Source of the DNA: a virus
Direction: 5' to 3' (one strand)
Length of the DNA stretch: 44,880 nucleotides
Virus record (IMG/VR): IMGVR_UViG_3300024520_000137
Coordinates: 1 to 44,880 of that record
Position numbers and translations under genes: made by a program. The notes below the pieces were generated by a model. The model saw only the letters and a program-made list of their open reading frames with translations. It did not search any database and was not told where the DNA came from. Numbering within the stretch: the first letter of the stretch is position 1; each line of letters starts with the position of its first letter. Shown here piece by piece: positions 1,882 through 18,563 of the stretch.

Positions 1882-4023
1882 ATGATTCTAACTAAAGCAA
1901 CCGAGAAATTCCTAACCAAGCCGGATCTATTCGATACAGACGTTTTATGTGTCGATCTGGTGGAATCCGCCGATAGGGTCTATTTCCAGTGCGAGATTAA
2001 ATCAAGGGATACCTCTTTCCCGGAGGAATACTTTGACATAAAGCATTATGGATCAAAGGGCCATCAATTCTCTCGCCGTCCCGGTAATCCCGCCACGGGA
2101 GCTAAAAGCGCGTGGGATTCCATGGCTAAGTTTATTCCCAGCAAGTCCCTCGCGGGAACTGCAATTAAATGGGATATAAACGGCTGGCCTTCATATTCCG
2201 CTACTAATTTCCTTCATAGATTCCCCGAATCATGGAAGGCTAAGGGATATCATTGCAGGCGCGTCGGGCTGACCGATTTATCCGCCTGCCTTATCCAATT
2301 GTGGCCGGAAAAGCAAGTGGTAATGTCCACCGAAGCGTACACTTGCTATATTAGCCTCCTGGCCAGACTCAATCTCCAGTCGGAAAAGGCAAAATCCCAA
2401 GCTGACTTCAAGCTGGATAACCGCCTGCCTAAAACCGACCCTATTTTCGATAAGTTTGTTGAGAGGAAGTCTACTCCTCTGAGCGACTATCAAAAGATTG
2501 GATCTTTTCTTGGGCAAGGTAATTCCTATGCTTTATTCATGGAGCAGGGAACCGGGAAAACACCTATTGGTGTTTCTATCTCCAGCATAGCAGCCGCACG
2601 TTCTAATCTTGATAGGCCGCTGAGGGTTCTCATTGTTTGCCCTAAGCAGGTGAGACTCAATTGGTCGGTCGAGATTAAGAAGTTCACCACCGTGCCATGT
2701 GCTATTACACGGGTGAACGGAAACAAGACCGAAAGGTTTAAGCAGGTTGTTAAAGCCGTTGCTAAAACCTCACCGTTTCTTGAGGGATGCAAATACTCGG
2801 CAGTTATTACGTCATACGATACCCTTGCAAATGACGTAGACCTTTATTGCGCCATTGGGGAATGGGATCTCGTTATCTATGATGAATCCCATTACTTCAA
2901 GAACCACGACACTAACAGGTTCAAGGCAATTAAGAAACTCCGGGAGTTTGTCACTAACACCGTTATCCTCACGGGAACGCCGATCACAAATACCCTTCTT
3001 GACCTATTCGCCCAACTTGAATCTCTGGGAGAGGGTTATTCTGGGTTTATGACATGGAAGGGGTTTAAGGACTTCCATGTTAACTATGAGACGGCAGGGC
3101 AAACAGCCTCCGGTGGAACCTTCCAGCGCATTCTTGGATTTGAGAATGTACCTATGCTTCAAGAGCGACTTTCAAGGTTATCTTATAGGATAACTAAGAA
3201 GGAAGCAGGGCTAAACCTACCTGATAAGGTATATGACCTACACGAAGTTACAATGACCGAAAAGCAGGGGAAGCTGTATAAGACTCTCGCTGAGCAAATG
3301 TATGCTGAGTTTGAGGGCCGCGATATGACTAACCCTGTCACCATCAATAACGTCCTTACTGAGATTCTTAGGTTGGCCCAAGTAACCTCCGGTCACATTA
3401 GGCCCGACGAATCGGAAGTCTGCCAGATTGATTCAGTTAATCCTAAGGTTGACGCCGTGGCGAGTCTTATTAACGACTCTCAAAAGCCTAAGAATGAAAA
3501 GGTTCTTGTATGGGCCGTGTTCGTCGAAGATATCAAGAGAATCTCAGAGCGTCTGACAAAAGAGGGTATCGGGCATGTTACCTACTTTGGGGAAACTAAG
3601 GACAAGGCGAGAGAAAAGGCGATTGAGTCTTTTAACAATGATCCTTATTGCAAGGTGTTTGTTGGACACCCGAGAGCAGCGGGAGCGGGACTTAATCTCC
3701 TCGGATACAATAAGGAGGACCCGGCTTCGTGCATTATCCCCGAAACTGAACCGGCGGTCGGTGTGGATTCGCAAGGTGTCACACTATGCGAACATACTTA
3801 CACTGGGCACGAAATCTTCTTCTCAAATAACTGGAGTATGACCGACCGGGCGCAGGCTGAAGATAGAGCGCATAGGCGCGGGACTAAAATGCCTGTCCGA
3901 ATTACTGATATCGTCGTGCCTGATACCATTGATATGGTTATCAGAGATAGGGTACAGAGCAAGAAGCAGAACGCTGAAATTGTCCAAGACATTAAGGCGA
4001 TCCTCAATAGTTTGAGAGGTTAA
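1882..4023 (+). CDS. SNF2-type superfamily 2 helicase/ATPase
   Basis: 713 residues. Motifs in order: Q-like LSDYQKIGSFL near 200; Walker A EQGTGKT at 221-227; Walker B variant DESH at 334-337; motif III LTGT at 363-366; motif V GAGLNL near 595; motif VI RAQAEDRAHRRG near 660. Between V and VI there is an insert of about 55 residues not seen in the minimal core. The first 190 residues are phage-specific. SNF2-like ATPases are frequent in phage replication modules and translocate on duplex DNA, probably helping recombination-dependent replication or fork remodelling. Start ATG at 1882 follows AGAAAGAAAATC. Confidence 0.92.
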   Translation: MILTKATEKFLTKPDLFDTDVLCVDLVESADRVYFQCEIKSRDTSFPEEYFDIKHYGSKGHQFSRRPGNPATGAKSAWDSMAKFIPSKSLAGTAIKWDINGWPSYSATNFLHRFPESWKAKGYHCRRVGLTDLSACLIQLWPEKQVVMSTEAYTCYISLLARLNLQSEKAKSQADFKLDNRLPKTDPIFDKFVERKSTPLSDYQKIGSFLGQGNSYALFMEQGTGKTPIGVSISSIAAARSNLDRPLRVLIVCPKQVRLNWSVEIKKFTTVPCAITRVNGNKTERFKQVVKAVAKTSPFLEGCKYSAVITSYDTLANDVDLYCAIGEWDLVIYDESHYFKNHDTNRFKAIKKLREFVTNTVILTGTPITNTLLDLFAQLESLGEGYSGFMTWKGFKDFHVNYETAGQTASGGTFQRILGFENVPMLQERLSRLSYRITKKEAGLNLPDKVYDLHEVTMTEKQGKLYKTLAEQMYAEFEGRDMTNPVTINNVLTEILRLAQVTSGHIRPDESEVCQIDSVNPKVDAVASLINDSQKPKNEKVLVWAVFVEDIKRISERLTKEGIGHVTYFGETKDKAREKAIESFNNDPYCKVFVGHPRAAGAGLNLLGYNKEDPASCIIPETEPAVGVDSQGVTLCEHTYTGHEIFFSNNWSMTDRAQAEDRAHRRGTKMPVRITDIVVPDTIDMVIRDRVQSKKQNAEIVQDIKAILNSLRG

Positions 4024-7782: not shown

Positions 7783-8502
7783 ATGGGACTCATGGACGAC
7801 GATAAGTCCATGGACGCAGTTCGACACCATAAAGTAATCCCACGCATTGATACCATCCAAGCAAAACCTAAGGCCCGCCGAGATATGTTCGGTGAGGGAA
7901 CCCTTATCCTTTCCCCAGGCGACGGAGTTCTATGCAAGCTGGGAGAATACGTTGATGTTGTCCCAATCTTTTTCTATGATGAATGGATTGTTTGGGCTGA
8001 TAGAGACGATCCCAATAACTCAGTCATGGAGAGGACGTTAGACCCTAACTCAGAAGTCGCAAAGAAGGCGGCAGACCCACACACGAGAGAAGAAGAGTAT
8101 GAGGGTGGGTTCACCAAAATATACACCCACGTTCTACAGTATTGCCTTGTTCTATATTCTGGTGACATGAAGGGTTCTCTTTGTGTTATCGGATTCAGCA
8201 AGGGAGAGTTCTTCTATGGCCAGAATTGGTCGTCTGCCATGTTCATGAGAAAGGTAGGTGGAAAGCAGGCTCCAATGTGGTCACAAGTCTGGAGGATTAC
8301 CCCCAGCGAAAGAGACAGGAAGGGCCACCAGTGGTTCGGGCCGGACTATCTTAACGGTCCCCAGCTTCTCATCAAACCAGAAGAGGCTAAGGCTTTTAAG
8401 CAACTCCATGAAGAAACAAAGGCAGACTTTGAAGCTAAGAAGCTCTCTGTTGATTATTCAGGCGTTGAAAAAGCAGTAAGCGACGAAGACTCAGAGATGT
8501 AG
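7783..8502 (+). CDS. Hypothetical phage protein, 239 residues; start uncertain
   Basis: The body from MGLMDDDKSMDAVRHH onward is clearly coding: regular alpha/beta sequence, many Trp/Tyr, and an acidic C-terminus (VSDEDSEM), a feature shared with phage single-stranded-DNA-binding proteins. The frame opens only after the TAA at 7741 and the ATG at 7783 has no Shine-Dalgarno. A different-frame ORF starting at ATG 7736 (MSNEIEKVNVKNTQNL) runs into this start, so a frameshift, a sequencing error, or a weak internal start are all possible. Position just before the tRNA-like element and primase fits a replication protein, but this is inference. Confidence 0.7.
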   Translation: MGLMDDDKSMDAVRHHKVIPRIDTIQAKPKARRDMFGEGTLILSPGDGVLCKLGEYVDVVPIFFYDEWIVWADRDDPNNSVMERTLDPNSEVAKKAADPHTREEEYEGGFTKIYTHVLQYCLVLYSGDMKGSLCVIGFSKGEFFYGQNWSSAMFMRKVGGKQAPMWSQVWRITPSERDRKGHQWFGPDYLNGPQLLIKPEEAKAFKQLHEETKADFEAKKLSVDYSGVEKAVSDEDSEM

Positions 8503-8509
8503 TACAACC

Positions 8510-8596
8510 GCCCCTGTAGCATAAGAAATGCGGGAGAGGTCACCTTGTAGAACCTTCACCCTCTCCAGATTTAGGTGTCGAATCCTAACAGGGGCA
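8510..8596 (+). tRNA. tRNA-like element with abnormal anticodon arm
   Basis: Perfect 7-bp acceptor (GCCCCTG 8510-8516 with CAGGGGC 8589-8595), then A. T-like arm TTAGG/CCTAA with an eight-base loop TGTCGAAT, one more than usual. D-like arm GCA/TGC with a seven-base loop lacking GG. The centre is a 7-bp stem GGAGAGG/CCTCTCC (8533-8539, 8560-8566) closing a 20-base loop, so no normal 5-bp stem and 7-base anticodon loop forms. Could be a degenerate tRNA, a tRNA with an insertion, or a tRNA mimic. The amino acid identity cannot be assigned. It ends two bases before the next ATG. Confidence 0.45.
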
Positions 8597-8901: not shown

Positions 8902-11739
8902 TTGCCATCCTATACAATTGAAGTTATAGATTCTAAGGCTGAATTTGCGAAAGCAAGCATAACCTGGGAGGAATTAGGTGACAATGAGGTTAAGATCATA
9001 TGCCCCTTCCATAAGGACACCAGTCCATCATTCTGCTTTAACACTAAAAAGAATGTAGGAACCTGTAAAGTATGTAATAATTCAGCTGATATTATAGGGT
9101 ACTTTATAGCCCATTTCGGAAAGGCTGTAAAGAGGGAGACCATACTCGGGGATTTTAAGGCACGATATGACATAGAATCTGTTAAGACTTTTCCTATAGA
9201 GAGGGTGGCTATGTACCACAAAGAACTCAAGGAAAAGAAACCAGGTATCATACAGGCCCTATACGATAGAGGGATGAATGATGATGATATCAGAAAGCAT
9301 AGATTCGGTCTATTTCAAGACAGAATAACAATACCGGTATTTGACTCAGGCTCCAGGTGTGTAAATGTACGGCAATATAAACCTGGGGCGAGGAAGAACA
9401 AATATACTTCTTTTACCGGGTACGGCACGCCTGCAATATATCTCCCTGAGCAGCTAAAATACGACACTCTATGGCTATTGGGAGGGGAAATAAAGGCTGT
9501 AGTGGCAGCCAAGCTGTTAAATAGCAAAGGTATAGGTGCGTTTTGCGTAACAGGAGGGGAGGGAGCCTGGAATGGGAAGTGGAATCCCCTAATAGAAGGG
9601 AAAAATCTATTCATCTGTATGGATGTTGACCCCGCCGGTGTCAAAGCATCCAGGGATTTGGGTAGACTATTAAGAAATAAGTGTAAGTCTATAGGTATAG
9701 TTACCCTTCCTCTGTCATTAGAAAAGTACCCCAAAGGGGACATAAATGATTACATAGCGACAGAGAAAGCCACTTTAGAAGACCTATTAAAACTGATGGA
9801 ATCGGCAGAGGTCCCATCAATGGAAAGTAAAGAAAGACCAGAACCTTTAAGCATAGAATTATCTAAGTGTGAATTAAATAACGGAAAGAGAGTATCCTTC
9901 GACGGCACTCCAATTGCTGCGGACACGAGCCCATATCTAATACCAAAGGAAGTAAAGCTATCCTGCACTCAAGGGCAACCCTTTTGCCATGAATGCTCCG
10001 TCCCAAATTTGGCTCCATCAGGAATATTCGAGGAAATAGTAGAGTTCGATGATTACGACACGAGAACCTTACAGTTCGTAGATGTAACAGCAAATGATGA
10101 GCCGAGAATCCTTAAAAAGGTGCTGGGAATCCCCATCAGATGTCCTGAGATACAAGCAGAAATAGAAGAGAGAAGACCCCTATATGATTTCAGGGTAACT
10201 GATAATTCAGACAACAATGTAGGGCATGTTGCTGCATATCTCGGACACAAAATTGAACTAAATATACCTCACACTTTCATAGTTACACCTTCTCCGTCTC
10301 CCAAAGACTCCAAACTGGTCCTATTAGCCGAGAAAGTGACGCCCACGCAAGACGGATTGGACGGGTTTGAGCTTACGGATGATAACAAGAAGTCATTGGA
10401 GGTATTCCAGCCTACAGAGTGGTCAAAGGAAGGAATTGATGACAAACTTACTGAGATATACGACGACTTCGAGTCGAATGTTACTCGGATTTATCATAGG
10501 CGTGACTTACATATTGTATGCGACCTTGTGTTTCATTCCCCTTTATACCTGTCTTTCGATTCTCGAAAAGAGCCTGGGTGGCTTGACGCAATCGTTGTTG
10601 GGGATTCAGCGCAGGGAAAGACAGAAACAGCTACAAGACTATCTTCGCACTATGATCTTGGCGCAAGAGCAGATTGCAAAAACGCAACAAGAGCAGGGCT
10701 CGTCGGGGCAGTCAAAATGCTCGGAAAACGATGGTTTATCTCTTGGGGAGTCATTCCGGCTAACGACAGAAGATTAGTAATACTTGAAGAAGCTAAAGGG
10801 TTAAGAAAAACAGAGATAGCTCAGATGACCGATATGCGGTCGAGAGGCGTAGCTGAATTAACAAAGGTAGAAACGTCACACGCTAACGCAAGGACACGAC
10901 TACTGTGGTTATCTAACCCAAGAAAAGGTGAAATGGCTACATTTGCCTATGGCGTAGAATCTATAATAGATGTCGCCGGGACGCCAGAGGATGTTAGGCG
11001 GTTTGACATAGGACTTATAGTACACAAGGACGAAGTTAACTCTGCCGATATAGCCGAGTTCCTACAGTCAACAGATAAGAAAGAACATAAGTATACGAAA
11101 GAAGTTTGCAGACTGAACATAATGTTCTCGTGGTCAAGAAAGCCGGATCAAGTAGTCATCACACCAGAAGTTGCAAATGAGTGCATCCAAGCCTCAGTCA
11201 GACTAAGTGATAAGTTCGACCACACCATACCTCTTTTAGACCACGGGACTGCAAGATTCAAACTTGCGAGAGTAGCGGCAGCAGTAGCGGCCAGAACATA
11301 CTCCGTATTCAATGATTCTCTTGTTATACGGAAGTGCCATGTAGAATGGGCAGAAGCTTTCTTGGACAGGATATATTCGACTAAATACTCTGGTTACTCA
11401 GAATGGTCTGATATTAGGAAGAAAGCCACTACACTAAAAAATGCCGAAGCTATAGAGCATTGGATAAGAAGCGTTAGATACCCACAATCATTCGTAGAGG
11501 GTTTACTTGGTCAAGAAACAGTTAGCCGAGATGACCTGGAAGATTGGCTGGAGGTTGATTACCTGGAGGCTGCTAAGGCGGCAAGCAAATTGGTTAGAAA
11601 TAGGTGCCTCCAAAGGGATAATAGGTCATATGTGAAAAACCCTCAGTTCATTATACTTCTTAAGGGTTTGGAAGACCTCCCGGAAGAGAATGATGTTGTA
11701 AGGCTATATAAGGATGTTGAAGACAACCCGGAGATGTAG
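8902..11739 (+). CDS. DNA primase fused to MCM-like AAA+ helicase
   Basis: 945 residues, TTG start: a TAA lies at 8896-8898 in frame and AGGGA stands upstream. Domains in order: CHC2-type zinc finger (C34, H37, C55, C58); TOPRIM primase core with GGE at 194-196 and DVDPAG at 241-246; Cys cluster C355, C362, C365 in a beta-rich part resembling the zinc/OB region of MCM proteins; AAA+ ATPase with Walker A GDSAQGKTE (567-575), Walker B-like RLVILEEAKGL (624-634), sensor 1 LLWLSNP (667-673) and VRRFDIGLI matching the MCM SRFDL motif; helical C-terminus. Known: TOPRIM primases make RNA primers and MCM rings unwind DNA. Inferred: one polypeptide does both at the phage fork. Most phages instead fuse primase to a RecA-type helicase. 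Confidence 0.85.
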   Translation: MPSYTIEVIDSKAEFAKASITWEELGDNEVKIICPFHKDTSPSFCFNTKKNVGTCKVCNNSADIIGYFIAHFGKAVKRETILGDFKARYDIESVKTFPIERVAMYHKELKEKKPGIIQALYDRGMNDDDIRKHRFGLFQDRITIPVFDSGSRCVNVRQYKPGARKNKYTSFTGYGTPAIYLPEQLKYDTLWLLGGEIKAVVAAKLLNSKGIGAFCVTGGEGAWNGKWNPLIEGKNLFICMDVDPAGVKASRDLGRLLRNKCKSIGIVTLPLSLEKYPKGDINDYIATEKATLEDLLKLMESAEVPSMESKERPEPLSIELSKCELNNGKRVSFDGTPIAADTSPYLIPKEVKLSCTQGQPFCHECSVPNLAPSGIFEEIVEFDDYDTRTLQFVDVTANDEPRILKKVLGIPIRCPEIQAEIEERRPLYDFRVTDNSDNNVGHVAAYLGHKIELNIPHTFIVTPSPSPKDSKLVLLAEKVTPTQDGLDGFELTDDNKKSLEVFQPTEWSKEGIDDKLTEIYDDFESNVTRIYHRRDLHIVCDLVFHSPLYLSFDSRKEPGWLDAIVVGDSAQGKTETATRLSSHYDLGARADCKNATRAGLVGAVKMLGKRWFISWGVIPANDRRLVILEEAKGLRKTEIAQMTDMRSRGVAELTKVETSHANARTRLLWLSNPRKGEMATFAYGVESIIDVAGTPEDVRRFDIGLIVHKDEVNSADIAEFLQSTDKKEHKYTKEVCRLNIMFSWSRKPDQVVITPEVANECIQASVRLSDKFDHTIPLLDHGTARFKLARVAAAVAARTYSVFNDSLVIRKCHVEWAEAFLDRIYSTKYSGYSEWSDIRKKATTLKNAEAIEHWIRSVRYPQSFVEGLLGQETVSRDDLEDWLEVDYLEAAKAASKLVRNRCLQRDNRSYVKNPQFIILLKGLEDLPEENDVVRLYKDVEDNPEM

Positions 11740-11950: not shown

Positions 11951-12024
11951 GCTCCCGTAGCCCAACTGGTAGAGGCAAGGCACTTAAAATGCCTGCGTTG
12001 TCGGTTCGACTCCGACCGGGAGTA
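11951..12024 (+). tRNA. tRNA-Leu(UAA)-like, short variable arm
   Basis: Cloverleaf: acceptor GCTCCCG/CGGGAGT (first pair G-U), D arm GCC/GGC with a loop containing GG, anticodon arm AGGCA-CTTAAAA-TGCCT with anticodon TAA, variable loop of only five bases, T arm GTCGG-TTCGACT-CCGAC, discriminator A. The anticodon reads UUA, a leucine codon. Bacterial leucine tRNAs normally have a long variable arm, and this has none, so the charging identity is uncertain. CCA is not encoded. It ends one base before the next ATG. Confidence 0.8.
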
Positions 12025-12025
12025 T

Positions 12026-12862
12026 ATGATAATATACCACAAAAATTGCTATGATGGGTATACTGCGGCCCACATAGTCAAAAAGAGGTTCCCTGAGTCT
12101 CGTATGATTCCATCTTCCTACGGGGACGATCTTCCGGAGGTATATCTCGGGGACACGGTGTATATAGTAGACTTTTCATTCCCGCCCGAAATGATAGAGG
12201 ATCTTTGTAGAATGGCGGTGAATGTGTATGTCTACGATCACCATAAGTCAGCAATTGAAAGACTCGAGTACCTTAAAATAGATAATCTACACATGGTACT
12301 TGATGTGGATAGGAGCGGGGCTCAGATAACATGGGATGAGCTTTACCCGGATCAAGAGTACCCTGTATTAGTAGCTTACACCGCTGATAGGGATTTGTGG
12401 AAGTGGGAACTACCTAATAGCAAAGAGATCAATAGGTTCATAAGACTATTCAAAATGTCTGATTTCGAGGCTCTTGAGTGGAACCTTGAAAACCAATTAT
12501 TTAACTGCGTTGCTACAGGGGCTATACTTTTAAGGCAGTCAGAAAAAGAAGTTGGATTTTCATGTAGAAACAGAAGGATACTGAATTGGGGTGAACATAA
12601 AGTATCTGTGCTAAATGCGTCTCACTACATATCTGAAACTGGGAACAGGCTAGCTTCTACAGACGAAGTGGACTTTGCAGCTATATGGTACATTAGATCA
12701 GATGGAATGGTTCAGTGGGGATTAAGGAGTGTAGGTGACAATGATGTTTCCTCTATAGCAAAAAAGCACGGCGGCGGCGGCCATAAAAATGCAGCCGGCT
12801 TCACACTAAGCTTGTGTCAATCTTTAGGACTAATAACAGATGTTACAAGGCGAGACGATTAG
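12026..12862 (+). CDS. DHH-family phosphoesterase
   Basis: 278 residues. N-terminal DHH domain: MIIYHKNCYDGYTAA (metal-binding Asp), VDFSFPP, and YDHHKSA, the family signature. C-terminal DHHA1-type substrate motif GGGGHKNAAGF. Members include RecJ, NrnA/NrnB and GdpP; this length and layout fit short oligonucleotide or single-strand exonucleases such as NrnB. It probably recycles nanoRNA or processes ends in phage replication. ATG starts two bases after the tRNA; GGGAG of the tRNA acceptor (12018-12022) is the only Shine-Dalgarno. Confidence 0.88.
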   Translation: MIIYHKNCYDGYTAAHIVKKRFPESRMIPSSYGDDLPEVYLGDTVYIVDFSFPPEMIEDLCRMAVNVYVYDHHKSAIERLEYLKIDNLHMVLDVDRSGAQITWDELYPDQEYPVLVAYTADRDLWKWELPNSKEINRFIRLFKMSDFEALEWNLENQLFNCVATGAILLRQSEKEVGFSCRNRRILNWGEHKVSVLNASHYISETGNRLASTDEVDFAAIWYIRSDGMVQWGLRSVGDNDVSSIAKKHGGGGHKNAAGFTLSLCQSLGLITDVTRRDD

Positions 12863-14538: not shown

Positions 14539-14616
14539 ATGAAATGTACCATATGTGGTCGTGAAGTAAAAGACGCTTTTATATGCGAAGACTGCCTGAA
14601 GCCTGAAGATGATTGA
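14539..14616 (+). CDS. 25-residue zinc-ribbon microprotein
   Basis: ATG 14539 to TGA 14616, with CTIC-like and CEDC pairs (C3, C6, C16, C19), a minimal four-Cys metal site. It overlaps the polymerase start by 8 bases. No clear Shine-Dalgarno. The clean CxxC-x9-CxxC pattern and overlapping layout support a real microprotein or leader peptide for the polymerase; it could be spurious. Confidence 0.4.
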   Translation: MKCTICGREVKDAFICEDCLKPEDD

Positions 14617-16438
14617 AATAAAAACTCACTTAGGTACTGCTCGAATAGTTGAGCATCACTCTGAATTACCTGATTTCAGTGGAGCGAGTGTACAGTATAA
14701 AGATATAGAATCGAAGAATGGGATGAAAGGTGGAGGCGGCACTAACGCATGGCAAGGGGATAGGGTCTGTGGTGTAGCTGTTACTGTGGACGATAGAGAG
14801 GGTGCGTGGTATGTACCTTACAGGCACACCGACCCACTAACAGAGAACTTACCTATAGAAAAGGTACTGCCATGGCTTGAGGAACACAATAGGATACCAG
14901 TATGGGTTAACCATAACATCAAATTTGACCAAGCGTTCCTTTACCACGACTCACCTAAACTGGAGTTCCCGGGCCAGATGATAGATACTGTGGTGATGGC
15001 CAAAATGGTGAACTCAGATAGGTGGTCACATGATCTAAAGCCGCTATGTAGGGAATGGCTAAAGTTGCCTATGGAGGAAGAACTTAAGGTCAAGAACTAT
15101 TTAGTTGAGGTAGGTAAGCATAAGAAAATAATTAAAGCTAATTGGAGCTATTCAGACGTTCCAGCAGATATACTTGGAGAGTATGCATGTATAGATGTAC
15201 TTGCTAACAGAGAGCTATATAAATATCTAAAGAACGAACTGCCTGAGGACTCCAAGAAGTGCTGGGAGACTGAGGTAAAACTTACGCCCGTACTATGGGA
15301 CATGGAAAGGGACGGTCTTAGGGTAGACCCAGAAGAGGTAAAAGATGAGATAACTAAAGCCAACACCCATATGTTCTACATGGAGAACGCCCTCGTAAAC
15401 GCTACAAAGCAGGAATATGTGGACTCAGCAAAACATCTGTACGACTTACTGTGCCTACAGGAAGGGCTCCCAGTTCTTGGAAGGACAGAAAAGGGGTCTC
15501 CATCGTTTAAGACTGAGGTACTGGAGAAATACCCTAACCTACCTGACCTGACCGATAGGCAGAAGGCACTCATAGACCTGATAGTTATGTACCGCGCCGA
15601 GAGGCACTTTAAGAGCCTATTCTTAGAATCCTACTCGGCCCTACAAGATTCTAATAATAGGATACACGCATCGTACAATCAACTTGTGAGAACAGGGAGG
15701 ATGTCGGGTAAAAGACCTAACATGCAACAGCTCAATAAGAGAGCCAAGTCGCTTATAAAGCCGGACGAGGGTTGCTGGTTTGGGGACTGGGACGCCTCCC
15801 AGATTGAGTTCCGAATAATCATCCATTACATAAAAGACGCAGCGACAATAGCGCAATATAAGATAGACCCGTACACTGACGCACATAATTGGATGGCAGG
15901 GTTATGCCGTAGCGACAGACGGATAGCCAAAACCATGAACTTCCTAATTGCATACAGCGGAGGCAGGAAGTTAGCAATAGAGAAGCTATCTCCATTCCTT
16001 TCTGTATCGGGAGCTAATGAAGTATTTGACATATTTCATGACACTCTGCCAGGTGTGAAGATAGTAACTGATAATGCGTCAAGAATATGCAAAAGAAGAG
16101 GGTACGTCTATACTGCATTTGGTAGACGTAGGTATCTGCCTCCTAAAGCGTCTCATAAAGCGTTCAATACTGTAGTTCAGGGAACAGCTATGGACTACAT
16201 AAAGACAAGGATGGTAGCTCTTAGTCCTCGATACAATGATAAGCTAAAGGGATGGGGGATTACACAGAGAGTTAATGTACACGATTCTCTTGTATTTAAT
16301 GGGGACTGTATTCATCACCCTGAAGTCAGGGCACATATTGATTCAGTTCTACCTGTTCAAGAAGTAGATTTCAGGGTCCCCTTTGTGTGGGACTCAGGTT
16401 TTTCAGACAAAGATTGGGCTTCAGTTGGTCCGTTATGA
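14609..16438 (+). CDS. polA: DNA polymerase I, family A, with 3'-5' exonuclease
   Basis: 609 residues. Exonuclease motifs intact: D32/E34 (KDIES), N103-D107 (NIKFD) and Y192-D196 (YACID). Polymerase motif A DASQIEFR (D395), motif B RRIAKTMNFLIAYSGG (K441, F445, Y449) and motif C VHDS (H558, D559). The 5'-3' exonuclease domain of bacterial Pol I is absent, as usual in phages. The residue aligned to E. coli 762 is Phe, a state associated with virulent phages in environmental surveys. It replicates the phage genome together with the primase-MCM protein. The ATG overlaps the microprotein gene and its TGA overlaps the next ATG. Confidence 0.95.
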   Translation: MIEIKTHLGTARIVEHHSELPDFSGASVQYKDIESKNGMKGGGGTNAWQGDRVCGVAVTVDDREGAWYVPYRHTDPLTENLPIEKVLPWLEEHNRIPVWVNHNIKFDQAFLYHDSPKLEFPGQMIDTVVMAKMVNSDRWSHDLKPLCREWLKLPMEEELKVKNYLVEVGKHKKIIKANWSYSDVPADILGEYACIDVLANRELYKYLKNELPEDSKKCWETEVKLTPVLWDMERDGLRVDPEEVKDEITKANTHMFYMENALVNATKQEYVDSAKHLYDLLCLQEGLPVLGRTEKGSPSFKTEVLEKYPNLPDLTDRQKALIDLIVMYRAERHFKSLFLESYSALQDSNNRIHASYNQLVRTGRMSGKRPNMQQLNKRAKSLIKPDEGCWFGDWDASQIEFRIIIHYIKDAATIAQYKIDPYTDAHNWMAGLCRSDRRIAKTMNFLIAYSGGRKLAIEKLSPFLSVSGANEVFDIFHDTLPGVKIVTDNASRICKRRGYVYTAFGRRRYLPPKASHKAFNTVVQGTAMDYIKTRMVALSPRYNDKLKGWGITQRVNVHDSLVFNGDCIHHPEVRAHIDSVLPVQEVDFRVPFVWDSGFSDKDWASVGPL

Positions 16439-16758
16439 ATGAGACGCAATTCGGTAAAAAGTTGAAGGAAAGGCTAAAGGCCAACAAAGGGCTCGTATTC
16501 AAAATATGGGGCAATGCAATACAGGAGGCTGGGTGGCCTGACATATACATAGCCCTGCCTGGATGGCACGGATGGGCAGAACTAAAGGTAGGTAAGAATA
16601 AACTGTCGGCCCTACAGGCTAAGAGGCTTAGAGATTTAGCGGAAAGAGACATACCTTGCTGCGTATTGAGGGAAAATGGGTGGCCTAAAATGAAGGTGGA
16701 GAACGTAGGCGGTGATATAGTCCCGCTGCTGGAGGTACTAAGAAATGGGGTGCATTAA
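16435..16758 (+). CDS. VRR-NUC-type endonuclease
   Basis: 107 residues from ATG 16435 (ATGA overlap with polA). Pattern matches small phage VRR-NUC/PD-(D/E)xK nucleases: N-terminal helix with early Glu (NETQFGKKLKERL), then GWPDIYIALPGWHGWAELKVGKNKLSALQ split as PD and ExK (AELK), then Q and a helix. Such enzymes cleave Holliday or branched junctions. Likely role: resolving replication intermediates before packaging. Confidence 0.85.
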   Translation: MNETQFGKKLKERLKANKGLVFKIWGNAIQEAGWPDIYIALPGWHGWAELKVGKNKLSALQAKRLRDLAERDIPCCVLRENGWPKMKVENVGGDIVPLLEVLRNGVH

Positions 16759-17536
16759 TTCAAGTACAAGATTCGGTAACTGGTTCGGTAATATACACTT
16801 CAGTGGCCCGTGTAATAGGTCGTGCTACTTTTGTATAGGCCAGCATATGATGGAGTTAGACCCAATCAACAACCTTGGAGAATGGCCCCCTAAAAACCTG
16901 AGGGAGTTCATCAAGGCTTGTAGGGTCAATGGGGTCAAGGATGTTTACCTTACAGGTACTAACACAGACCCTATAATGTACGATAACCTGGAAGCTCTTA
17001 CGAGCCTTCTGGCAGGGCACAGGTTTAAGGTGGGCGTTAGGACAAATGGCGCGTCTCACATACATAGATTAGAGTTCTTCGACAAAGCGTCAATCTCCAT
17101 CCCGAGCTTTGACGTTGATATATACAGGAGCATGATGGGGTCTGGGGAGCCGCCTGATCTCAAAGACTTAAAGTGTAGGGACGTAAAGATCAATGTTGTT
17201 CTTGGGCCAGAAAATAAGAACAACGTATTCCAAACCATAAGGAAGATAGCGAGCTACGGGATATTAAAGGTAAACTTAAGAGAGCCTTACGGCCAACCAA
17301 ATGTGGGGGACCCATTAAGAGATTACCTTCCTCTAAGACACACATACGGTATGCCTGTATATAGCATTTTTGGAGCAGAGGTAACTTATTGGGACGTGCA
17401 TTACGCTGAAGTCAACAGCGTAAACCTATTCGCTGATGGCACCATCAGCGAGGATTATGCAATAACACGCAGATATAGTGGGTCTCTCCCACAAGAATCG
17501 TTCACTCATGGTAGAAAACGGGAGCAATGGCTATGA
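16745..17536 (+). CDS. Radical SAM enzyme of unknown substrate
   Basis: 263 residues. [4Fe-4S]-binding CxxxCxxC at 23-30 (CNRSCYFC), followed by radical SAM core features: a TGTNTDP turn, a RTNGA strand near 99, and alternating beta/alpha. No SPASM or extra Cys cluster is evident. No queuosine genes (QueC/QueD/FolE) are nearby, so a QueE role is not supported. Overlaps the nuclease by 14 bases and the next gene by 10, so it is part of the replication operon. Reductive radical chemistry, perhaps nucleotide or tRNA modification, is inferred. Confidence 0.8.
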   Translation: MGCINSSTRFGNWFGNIHFSGPCNRSCYFCIGQHMMELDPINNLGEWPPKNLREFIKACRVNGVKDVYLTGTNTDPIMYDNLEALTSLLAGHRFKVGVRTNGASHIHRLEFFDKASISIPSFDVDIYRSMMGSGEPPDLKDLKCRDVKINVVLGPENKNNVFQTIRKIASYGILKVNLREPYGQPNVGDPLRDYLPLRHTYGMPVYSIFGAEVTYWDVHYAEVNSVNLFADGTISEDYAITRRYSGSLPQESFTHGRKREQWL

Positions 17537-17817
17537 ATTGTATTAAGTGTTTAGAGGATAAGAAAGACTTCTTATTCCCAGAAAACCAGATGCACGATAA
17601 CGCTGTTTGCTACAGATGTATAGACGCAAAAATAGCTACAGAGGTGGAAGCTAAGGCCAAAGCAAAGGGTATGCCCAGGGTAAGCAGAATATCGGAACTA
17701 TCTGAAGTATTTAAGGCTCTTATCAATAGTCCTGGATTGAGGTGCGAGGGAAAAGCCAACTTATACCTACTTCGGCTCTCAGAGTTGATACAAGAAATCA
17801 AGAGGGAGGGCGTGTAG
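17527..17817 (+). CDS. Zinc-ribbon protein, 96 residues
   Basis: ATG 17527 or 17533. N-terminal CIKC and CYRC pairs (about 5-8 and 28-31) form a zinc ribbon like those of phage recombination endonuclease VII-type proteins, but the His/Asn catalytic core is not seen. The remainder is helical. Stop TAG overlaps the ligase GTG. Confidence 0.6.
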   Translation: MAMNCIKCLEDKKDFLFPENQMHDNAVCYRCIDAKIATEVEAKAKAKGMPRVSRISELSEVFKALINSPGLRCEGKANLYLLRLSELIQEIKREGV

Positions 17818-18563
17818 TGCCAGTACCAGAATGGCTTAGTTATAGAGTTAAGGCCAAGAACTGGGAAGGGCAACCTTTCAGGTACGCAGAGATAAAGGAG
17901 GATGGAGTTAGGATAGCAGTGATTAAAAGGGATGGAGTGCTATCAGCTTGGGGAAGAAAGAATATAAATATGCTCGGCCCAGTTCTAAAATATCTAAAGA
18001 ACGTGGACGGCATACCTGATAACTGTATGATCGACGGAGAGCTACTCGGAGATAGGTACATAGCCTTCGATTTAACTGTGCTAAACGGTAAAAGGATTTA
18101 CTACCTATCGCACGAAGAGCAGAGATCCTTATTGAGAGAATATTGCACTCTCCCTACAGTAGTATCGGTTAAAGAAAAAACAGAGGAGCATATGAACCGA
18201 TTGGTCAAAAAATATAATGCGGAAGGGCTTATGCTAAAGCAGAGTACCTTTGGCCCGTGGTTTAAGTTTAAGCCTACAAAAACCATGGACGCTATAGTAA
18301 CAGACTTCAAATATGGTGAAGGTAGACACGCGCACAGACTCGGGGCGTTAGAAGTTTCCGTCTGGAAGGATAAAGCCTTAGTTCCTATCGCCAGCGTCGG
18401 GGGAGGGTTCACCGACGAGCAGAGAGATGCTATTACGCCAAAAGACGTAGGTAGGGTTCTGGAAGTTAGGTACGACTGCTTCCTTAAGAACCGACTGAGG
18501 TTCCCCCGCTTTATTAGGTGGAGGGATGATAAGCCGAGCGAAGAGTGCGAGTTCTCAGACTAA
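17817..18563 (+). CDS. ATP-dependent DNA ligase
   Basis: 248 residues from a GTG at 17817 (GAGGGAGGG just upstream, overlapping the TAG of the previous gene); a longer frame from 17742 lacks support. Motif I EIKEDGVR with the adenylated Lys, motif III-like YIAFDL, motif IV EGLMLK, motif V WFKFKP. Size matches minimal phage ligases such as T7 type: nucleotidyltransferase plus short OB domain (VGGGFTDEQR). It seals nicks in replicating DNA. Last gene of the early operon. Confidence 0.92.
   Translation: MPVPEWLSYRVKAKNWEGQPFRYAEIKEDGVRIAVIKRDGVLSAWGRKNINMLGPVLKYLKNVDGIPDNCMIDGELLGDRYIAFDLTVLNGKRIYYLSHEEQRSLLREYCTLPTVVSVKEKTEEHMNRLVKKYNAEGLMLKQSTFGPWFKFKPTKTMDAIVTDFKYGEGRHAHRLGALEVSVWKDKALVPIASVGGGFTDEQRDAITPKDVGRVLEVRYDCFLKNRLRFPRFIRWRDDKPSEECEFSD

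Follow-up and report, generated by a model that had tools for sequence, protein, structure and literature searches.

In their usual setting, DnaG-type primases are coupled to DnaB-type motors, which encircle the lagging strand. Within the TOPRIM domain, a glutamate is the presumed general base, while the aspartates of a DxD motif are metal ligands (PMC4538821). MCM-type motors are also known in phages, where they occur as fusions with archaeo-eukaryotic primase (AEP) domains; one of these, BcMCM, is a 3'->5' helicase with primase and polymerase activity (PMC4538821, PMC5862659). Phage primase-MCM proteins as such are already known; what is new here is a version with a DnaG-type primase and, within it, the proposed relocation of the TOPRIM glutamate. 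Among the openly accessible papers searched, none was found that reports an MCM motor joined to a DnaG-type primase; an earlier mention elsewhere is possible.

The 44,880 bases of the window, that is, of the whole stretch of DNA analyzed, make up a single IMG/VR virus record. On its minus strand lie genes for terminase, portal, major head, tape measure, and tail, a structural gene set that marks the record as a tailed phage. On the plus strand, the original prediction had read open reading frame 8902-11739 as a single-chain primase-helicase with an archaeal/eukaryotic-type motor in a bacterial phage. The same coordinates were recovered (Table 1), the motifs GDSAQGKTE, RLVILEEAKGL, LLWLSNP, and VRRFDIGLI were each found where they had been placed, and the proposed architecture is supported by both profile and model. 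Aligned with L001, its nearest relative, the frame has its TTG start opposite the L001 ATG. The order of domains is confirmed: a CHC2 zinc finger is followed by a DnaG/T7-type primase with its TOPRIM domain and then by a complete MCM-like module composed of a zinc-binding OB tier, an AAA+ motor, a lid, and, at the C terminus, a predicted winged helix.

Table 1. Replication genes of the window and features of the primase-MCM protein (window coordinates; residue numbers are those of the encoded protein)
Feature	Coordinates	Strand	Evidence
SNF2-family helicase	1882..4023	+	Pfam 6.9e-30; homologues in 57 relative loci
Pam3 gp34-like gene, upstream; probable gp32-type ssDNA-binding protein	7783..8502	+	homologue in 41 relative loci
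Primase-MCM fusion gene	8902..11739	+	945 aa, TTG start
CHC2 zinc finger (residues 30-69)	8989..9108	+	Pfam PF01807 2.7e-6; ligands C34, H37, C55, C58
N-terminal basic lobe, primase RNA-polymerase domain (residues ~113-186)	9238..9459	+	profile match to DnaG/T7 gp4; conserved R141, K167
TOPRIM domain (residues ~187-300)	9460..9801	+	DxD at D241/D243; Pfam, profile, model
Altered EGxxD motif, G194-G-E196-I-K198	9481..9495	+	alignment with 2au3; canonical Glu to Gly, Asp to Lys
E220, proposed relocated TOPRIM glutamate	9559..9561	+	loop after second TOPRIM strand; reciprocal with 194 in 150/150
MCM-type N-terminal tier, OB-like beta domain (residues ~316-490)	9847..10371	+	model, conservation; common to AEP-MCM proteins
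MCM-type AAA+ motor (residues ~540-710)	10519..11031	+	Pfam of relatives, profile, model, Foldseek
Walker A GDSAQGKTE (567-575)	10600..10626	+	K573 in 90/90
Walker B ending E629-E630	10774..10791	+	E630 (catalytic) kept in 89/90; first acid E 52, D 38
Sensor 1 Asn672 (in LLWLSNP)	10915..10917	+	90/90
Arginine finger R700 (RRFD)	10999..11001	+	90/90; aligned with archaeal MCM SRFD
Lid / sensor-2 region	11032..11376	+	R785 82/90, K787 89/90, R790 87/90
Predicted C-terminal helical / winged-helix region	11389..11661	+	model secondary structure
Family A DNA polymerase with 3'-5' exonuclease	14609..16438	+	Pfam 2.7e-46; homologues in 52 relative loci

The N-terminal half bears the marks of the CHC2 and TOPRIM primase that had been proposed. 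The window protein alone carries the zinc-finger pattern C34-x2-H37...C55-x2-C58 and scores above the Pfam cut-off for CHC2, and the zinc ligands are kept in 80-86 of the 90 family sequences on which residue conservation was counted. The Toprim_2 match of the window protein alone (0.05) lies below the Pfam cut-off; the DxD residues D241 and D243 are present in 85/90 and 86/90 sequences, respectively. When a profile built from 64 family members was searched against PDB sequences, its N-terminal half matched two stretches of Aquifex DnaG (2au3, 4.4e-28) as well as further DnaG structures and T7 gp4 (1nui, 5.7e-9). In the basic lobe, R141 and K167 are conserved across the family, and Pfam detected no AEP domain (PF01896) in the window protein. 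By fold, the primase half resembles a DnaG-type primase; by alignment, the canonical TOPRIM glutamate of the active site is missing from it.

Membership of the motor half in the MCM family, rather than among DnaB/RecA motors, is confirmed by family profile and predicted structure. Taken alone, the window protein falls below the Pfam cut-off for the MCM P-loop model (0.0044; 16.6 bits versus 23.3), the MCM_OB and MCM_lid models did not detect it, and PDB searches with the single sequence gave matches that were too weak. The MCM cut-off is exceeded by relatives L001, L006, L008, L004, and L005, and a 57%-identical relative scores 3.9e-6, over the cut-off. Against PDB sequences, the C-terminal half of the family profile matched MCM chains only, over profile positions 486-826 (8q6o, Mcm6, 4.1e-10; 3f9v, Saccharolobus MCM, 4.8e-9; 6mii, 1e-8), and no RecA, DnaB, or SF3 protein. 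In the AlphaFold model of the 945-residue protein (mean pLDDT 91.2, pTM 0.70), Foldseek recognized the fold of an MCM protein over the whole MCM chain, N-terminal tier plus AAA+ motor, and the top 50 PDB matches are all MCM proteins (E 1e-23 to 9e-21, 548-809 alignment columns). TM-scores against MCM structures are 0.43-0.63 by target and 0.34-0.43 by the full query, values that would be expected if the MCM part makes up about two thirds of the protein. The model also has strand pairs (602-607/610-615 and 650-653/659-662) where, by position, the helix-2 insert and pre-sensor-1 hairpins would be expected.

The original prediction of an MCM-like AAA+ motor had named a RecA/DnaB or SF3 fold as the result that would speak against it; profile, model, and PDB matches all returned MCM. 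Its "Cys-containing beta region" can be equated with the zinc-binding OB tier of the MCM N-terminal domain, in which C355, C362, C365, and C414 are each kept in 85-88 of 90 sequences. The Glu-Glu Walker B to which it drew attention is indeed present; as the first acid is Glu in 52 of the 90 family sequences and Asp in 38, this is a trait of the clade and not a defect. Two qualifications are nevertheless required. The motor on its own is already known in phages, as AEP fusions (BcMCM; PMC4538821, PMC5862659), and the primase half is apparently not of the plain DnaG type, its canonical TOPRIM glutamate being absent and seemingly relocated.

The same architecture, which the prediction had proposed to look for elsewhere, defines a widespread phage family. 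One profile scan of IMG/VR yielded 341 relatives, 80 of which were retrieved, and tblastn revealed relatives that match along their whole length in phages of Microbacterium, Arthrobacter, and Bacillus and in a spring-water phage, as well as a 77% match in Paenibacillus phages; one further locus lies on a Robiginitomaculum MAG contig with phage-like neighbors. The MCM half is also common to AEP-MCM proteins of Bacillus phage vB_BboS-125 and of a B. velezensis plasmid, and residues 342-917 of the window protein match phrog_18685 at 1.6e-59. By phylogeny, the AEP trio has a branch length of 2.08 and a weak placement (SH-aLRT 81). One motor lineage is thus found with a DnaG-type primase in some proteins and with an AEP in others, which shows replication modules in exchange. 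A candidate primase swap within one gene neighborhood, between a supposed "AEP" protein of Youna2 and the DnaG-type protein of BSTP12, was rejected, since the Youna2 and BSTP5 proteins are both CHC2-TOPRIM. Some existing annotations look wrong: the "DNA primase small subunit" of Youna2 (L096:4152-7169) and BSTP5 (L098:1008-3911) and the "DNA directed DNA polymerase" of MW202657 (L003:12001-14847) are all CHC2-TOPRIM-MCM proteins.

How a primase may retain its chemistry while its canonical glutamate is lost is suggested by a second position in the TOPRIM domain. Profile alignment sets DnaG VEGYFD opposite the family pattern [E/G]GE-x-[D/K], which identifies position 194, at the end of strand 1, as that of the canonical glutamate; the window protein has Gly194 here and Lys198 for the next aspartate. 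Among the first 85 sequences scored, 39 have Glu at 194 and 46 have Gly or Ala. At position 220, within the motif TGG[A/E]G, the same 46 have Glu and the same 39 have Ala, Ser, or Val. An out-of-sample set was drawn from relatives found with two other profiles, with sequences more than 80% identical to earlier ones removed (n = 65). The rule was unbroken in all 65, separate Ala-Glu and Gly-Asp-Glu cases among them, so that glutamate occupies 194 or 220, never both and never neither, in 150 of 150 sequences (85 + 65). Positions 194 and 220 also form the top pair by corrected mutual information among 39,135 in the primase half (0.574, the runner-up scoring 0.380). On a tree built from the MCM half only, and thus without either column, seven changes are needed at 194 and seven at 220; the five independent pairs of changes that lie on well-supported branches, out of seven transitions, are all opposite in direction (sign test p 0.0625). 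Outside the family, the canonical EG motif is kept in 10/10 sampled TOPRIM proteins. Lys198, which has a single origin on the tree and occurs with Glu194 too, does not track position 220; its single origin and co-occurrence with Glu194 suggest that the order of events in the window clade may have been EGxxD, then EGxxK, then GGxxK plus Glu220.

With the TOPRIM glutamate as the presumed general base (PMC4538821), these data are best read as a catalytic residue having been relocated, and the reciprocal pattern suggests a catalytic role for Glu220. It is somewhat favored that, within a one-chain primase-MCM replisome core, the catalytic glutamate left the end of strand 1 on several independent occasions for the loop that follows strand 2, and, held jointly and with the same modest preference, that this core sets a bacterial-type primase on an archaeal/eukaryotic-type motor of polarity opposite to that of the usual DnaB partner. 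A degenerate primase, with Glu and Asp both lost in the window clade, had been the leading view and was dropped in light of the reciprocal Glu220, which was upheld in new sequences. One relative (L054:2127-4967) is without CHC2 ligands and without the canonical TOPRIM glutamate, but has Glu at the 220 position. A switch of this kind would bring the relocation of a catalytic residue in the TOPRIM fold within reach of point mutation. It also suggests that an enzyme whose TOPRIM glutamate is "missing" is not necessarily dead.

Genome context places the gene in an early module for replication. The order SNF2 helicase, SSB-like gene, primase-MCM, PolA is conserved among relatives, and a family A polymerase is found in 28 of 33 carrier phage records. 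For the Pam3 gp34-like protein, the model (pLDDT 91.5) has the RB69/T4 gp32 core as its best Foldseek match (E 4e-3 to 6e-3, probability 0.97-0.99), which suggests that it is probably an ssDNA-binding protein. No DnaB_C domain (PF03796) was detected in any of the 33 carrier records, that of the window included, whereas the domain was detected in 14/14 control genomes; as the records may be fragments, this absence is no proof. Likewise, Prim-Pol (PF09250) was found in none of the 33. A single CHC2 domain occurs in 30 records, none in three, and a second in no record; of the three, two carry an altered finger (Wollypog and Hiddenleaf) and the third is the AEP phage. Beyond the fusion, searches with PF03796, PF01807, PF13155, and PF09250 turned up neither a further primase nor a DnaB in the genome, and a weak second Toprim_2 match appeared in one record (G011). 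From the lack of DnaB in the 33 records, the fusion is probably the only replicative helicase and primase of its carriers.

Other elements are found in the same region of the window. Between the SSB-like and primase genes lies a tRNA-like cloverleaf (8510-8596) with acceptor GCCCCTGT/ACAGGGGC, a T-arm, and a surplus of 15 nt in the anticodon loop; ARAGORN matches it only at a relaxed threshold, and it has no Rfam match. Directly downstream of the primase-MCM gene are a tRNA-Leu (TAA) at 11951-12024 and an adjoining DHH-family phosphoesterase (12026-12862); the phosphoesterase was not found near those loci of relatives that were examined. The replication region also encodes a radical SAM protein (16745-17536), with a counterpart of 50% identity close to the L085 primase-MCM gene, and a short ATP-dependent DNA ligase of 273 aa (17742-18563).

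The best explanation, with a probability of roughly 0.85, is that this protein is the phage's own one-chain replicative primase-helicase, in which a DnaG/T7-type primase precedes an MCM-family hexameric motor and Glu220 replaces the canonical glutamate. By analogy with BcMCM and with MCM biology generally, six copies would most likely form an MCM-like ring. This ring would move along the leading-strand template in the 3'->5' direction, its N-terminal tier in front, a polarity proposed from the behavior of archaeal MCM and CMG and from that which the related BcMCM is reported to have. The primase domains would be situated on the collar that faces the fork, at the exit of the excluded lagging strand. 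They would prime that strand, after which the phage's family A polymerase would take over, and the upstream gp34-like gene would supply the ssDNA-binding protein. In the window clade, the primase site would be a remodeled one, its DxD kept, Gly194 in place of the canonical glutamate, and Glu220 assuming the role of the latter. Counting against this explanation are the Walker A of the window protein, GKT versus the usual AKS of cellular MCM, and the loss of the canonical glutamate together with the Asp-to-Lys change at 198, which could mean a dead primase.

Were the primase dead, the motor would still be a working MCM helicase, with the primase half of this clade binding template and loading or tethering the helicase while host DnaG primes. 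Such a division of labor would fit the absence of the canonical glutamate from 46 of 85 sequences, the window's included, the replacement of the EGxxD aspartate by Lys in 42 of those 46, and the further loss of zinc ligands in L054. However, zinc ligands, DxD, R141, and K167 are still conserved in the same clade, conservation of the TOPRIM domain is nearly equal between the two clades (0.556 versus 0.569), and each loss of Glu194 is paired with Glu220, as expected if activity were retained; loss of priming appears unlikely. A comparably low likelihood attaches to the view that common descent, and not function, explains the 194/220 pattern through a handful of ancestral substitutions that coincided. 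Although the bulk of the pattern does lie in one large clade and only five transitions fall on well-supported branches, the later-chosen sequences brought no exception, their separate Ala-Glu and Gly-Asp-Glu cases included, the pair still ranks first after background correction, and position 198, which changed once, does not follow 220.

The remaining alternatives concern the motor. Some AAA+ domains of mobile elements work at initiation, and a host DnaB could be recruited to the fork, so that the C-terminal half might be an MCM-like AAA+ protein with another job, as an origin initiator or melter or as a loader of host DnaB. Set against this are a match that covers the whole MCM chain, N-terminal tier included, the lack of a phage DnaB in the carrier records, and the 3'->5' helicase activity of BcMCM, to which the motor half is related (PMC4538821); such a role is quite improbable. 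That the protein might be a T7 gp4- or Twinkle-type primase-helicase whose RecA/DnaB motor has been misread is suggested by the match of its primase half to T7 gp4, but these matches end at profile position 266, the C-terminal half matches no RecA/DnaB chain, and the record is without DnaB_C; profile, DnaB_C search, and Foldseek together refute this possibility. The reading as a one-chain replicative primase-helicase with an MCM motor is retained.

Comparison with known systems illustrates how the protein combines features otherwise found apart. Cellular MCM proteins (archaeal MCM, Mcm2-7) share its N-terminal tier and AAA+ fold, SRFD-type arginine finger, and sensor 1 Asn, but they are very distant in sequence (12-16% in structural alignment) and without a primase domain; the family also departs from them in its GKT/S Walker A and its EE or DE Walker B. 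BcMCM and the other AEP-MCM proteins (vB_BboS-125 gp45, PHROG 18685) are likewise primase-motor fusions of phages or prophages, with an MCM motor, a Cys-containing N-terminal tier, and a C-terminal region, and are homologous to the window protein over its residues 342-917; their primase, however, is an AEP domain, whereas that of the window protein is of the DnaG type, CHC2 plus TOPRIM. Conversely, T7 gp4 and the DnaB-fused phage primase-helicases have the same primase fold, with CHC2, TOPRIM, and motor in one chain, but their motor is RecA/DnaB. For the MCM-type AAA+ motor of the window protein the expected polarity is opposite (3'->5'), and its primase would thus act on the excluded strand. 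The same whole-length architecture, at 26-29% identity, is seen in the Krampus group (Microbacterium), Wollypog (Arthrobacter), BSTP5/8/12, Youna2 (Weizmannia), and API480 (Paenibacillus), whose proteins are annotated generically ("DNA primase/helicase") and in some cases wrongly. Unlike the window protein, the Krampus group, BSTP, and Youna2 proteins have the canonical TOPRIM glutamate, while Paenibacillus API480 has Ala in its place and Glu at the 220 position. In this large phage family, a DnaG-type primase is covalently joined to an MCM motor expected to run, as in eukaryotes, around the leading strand, and the family offers a small one-chain model for primase-MCM coupling.
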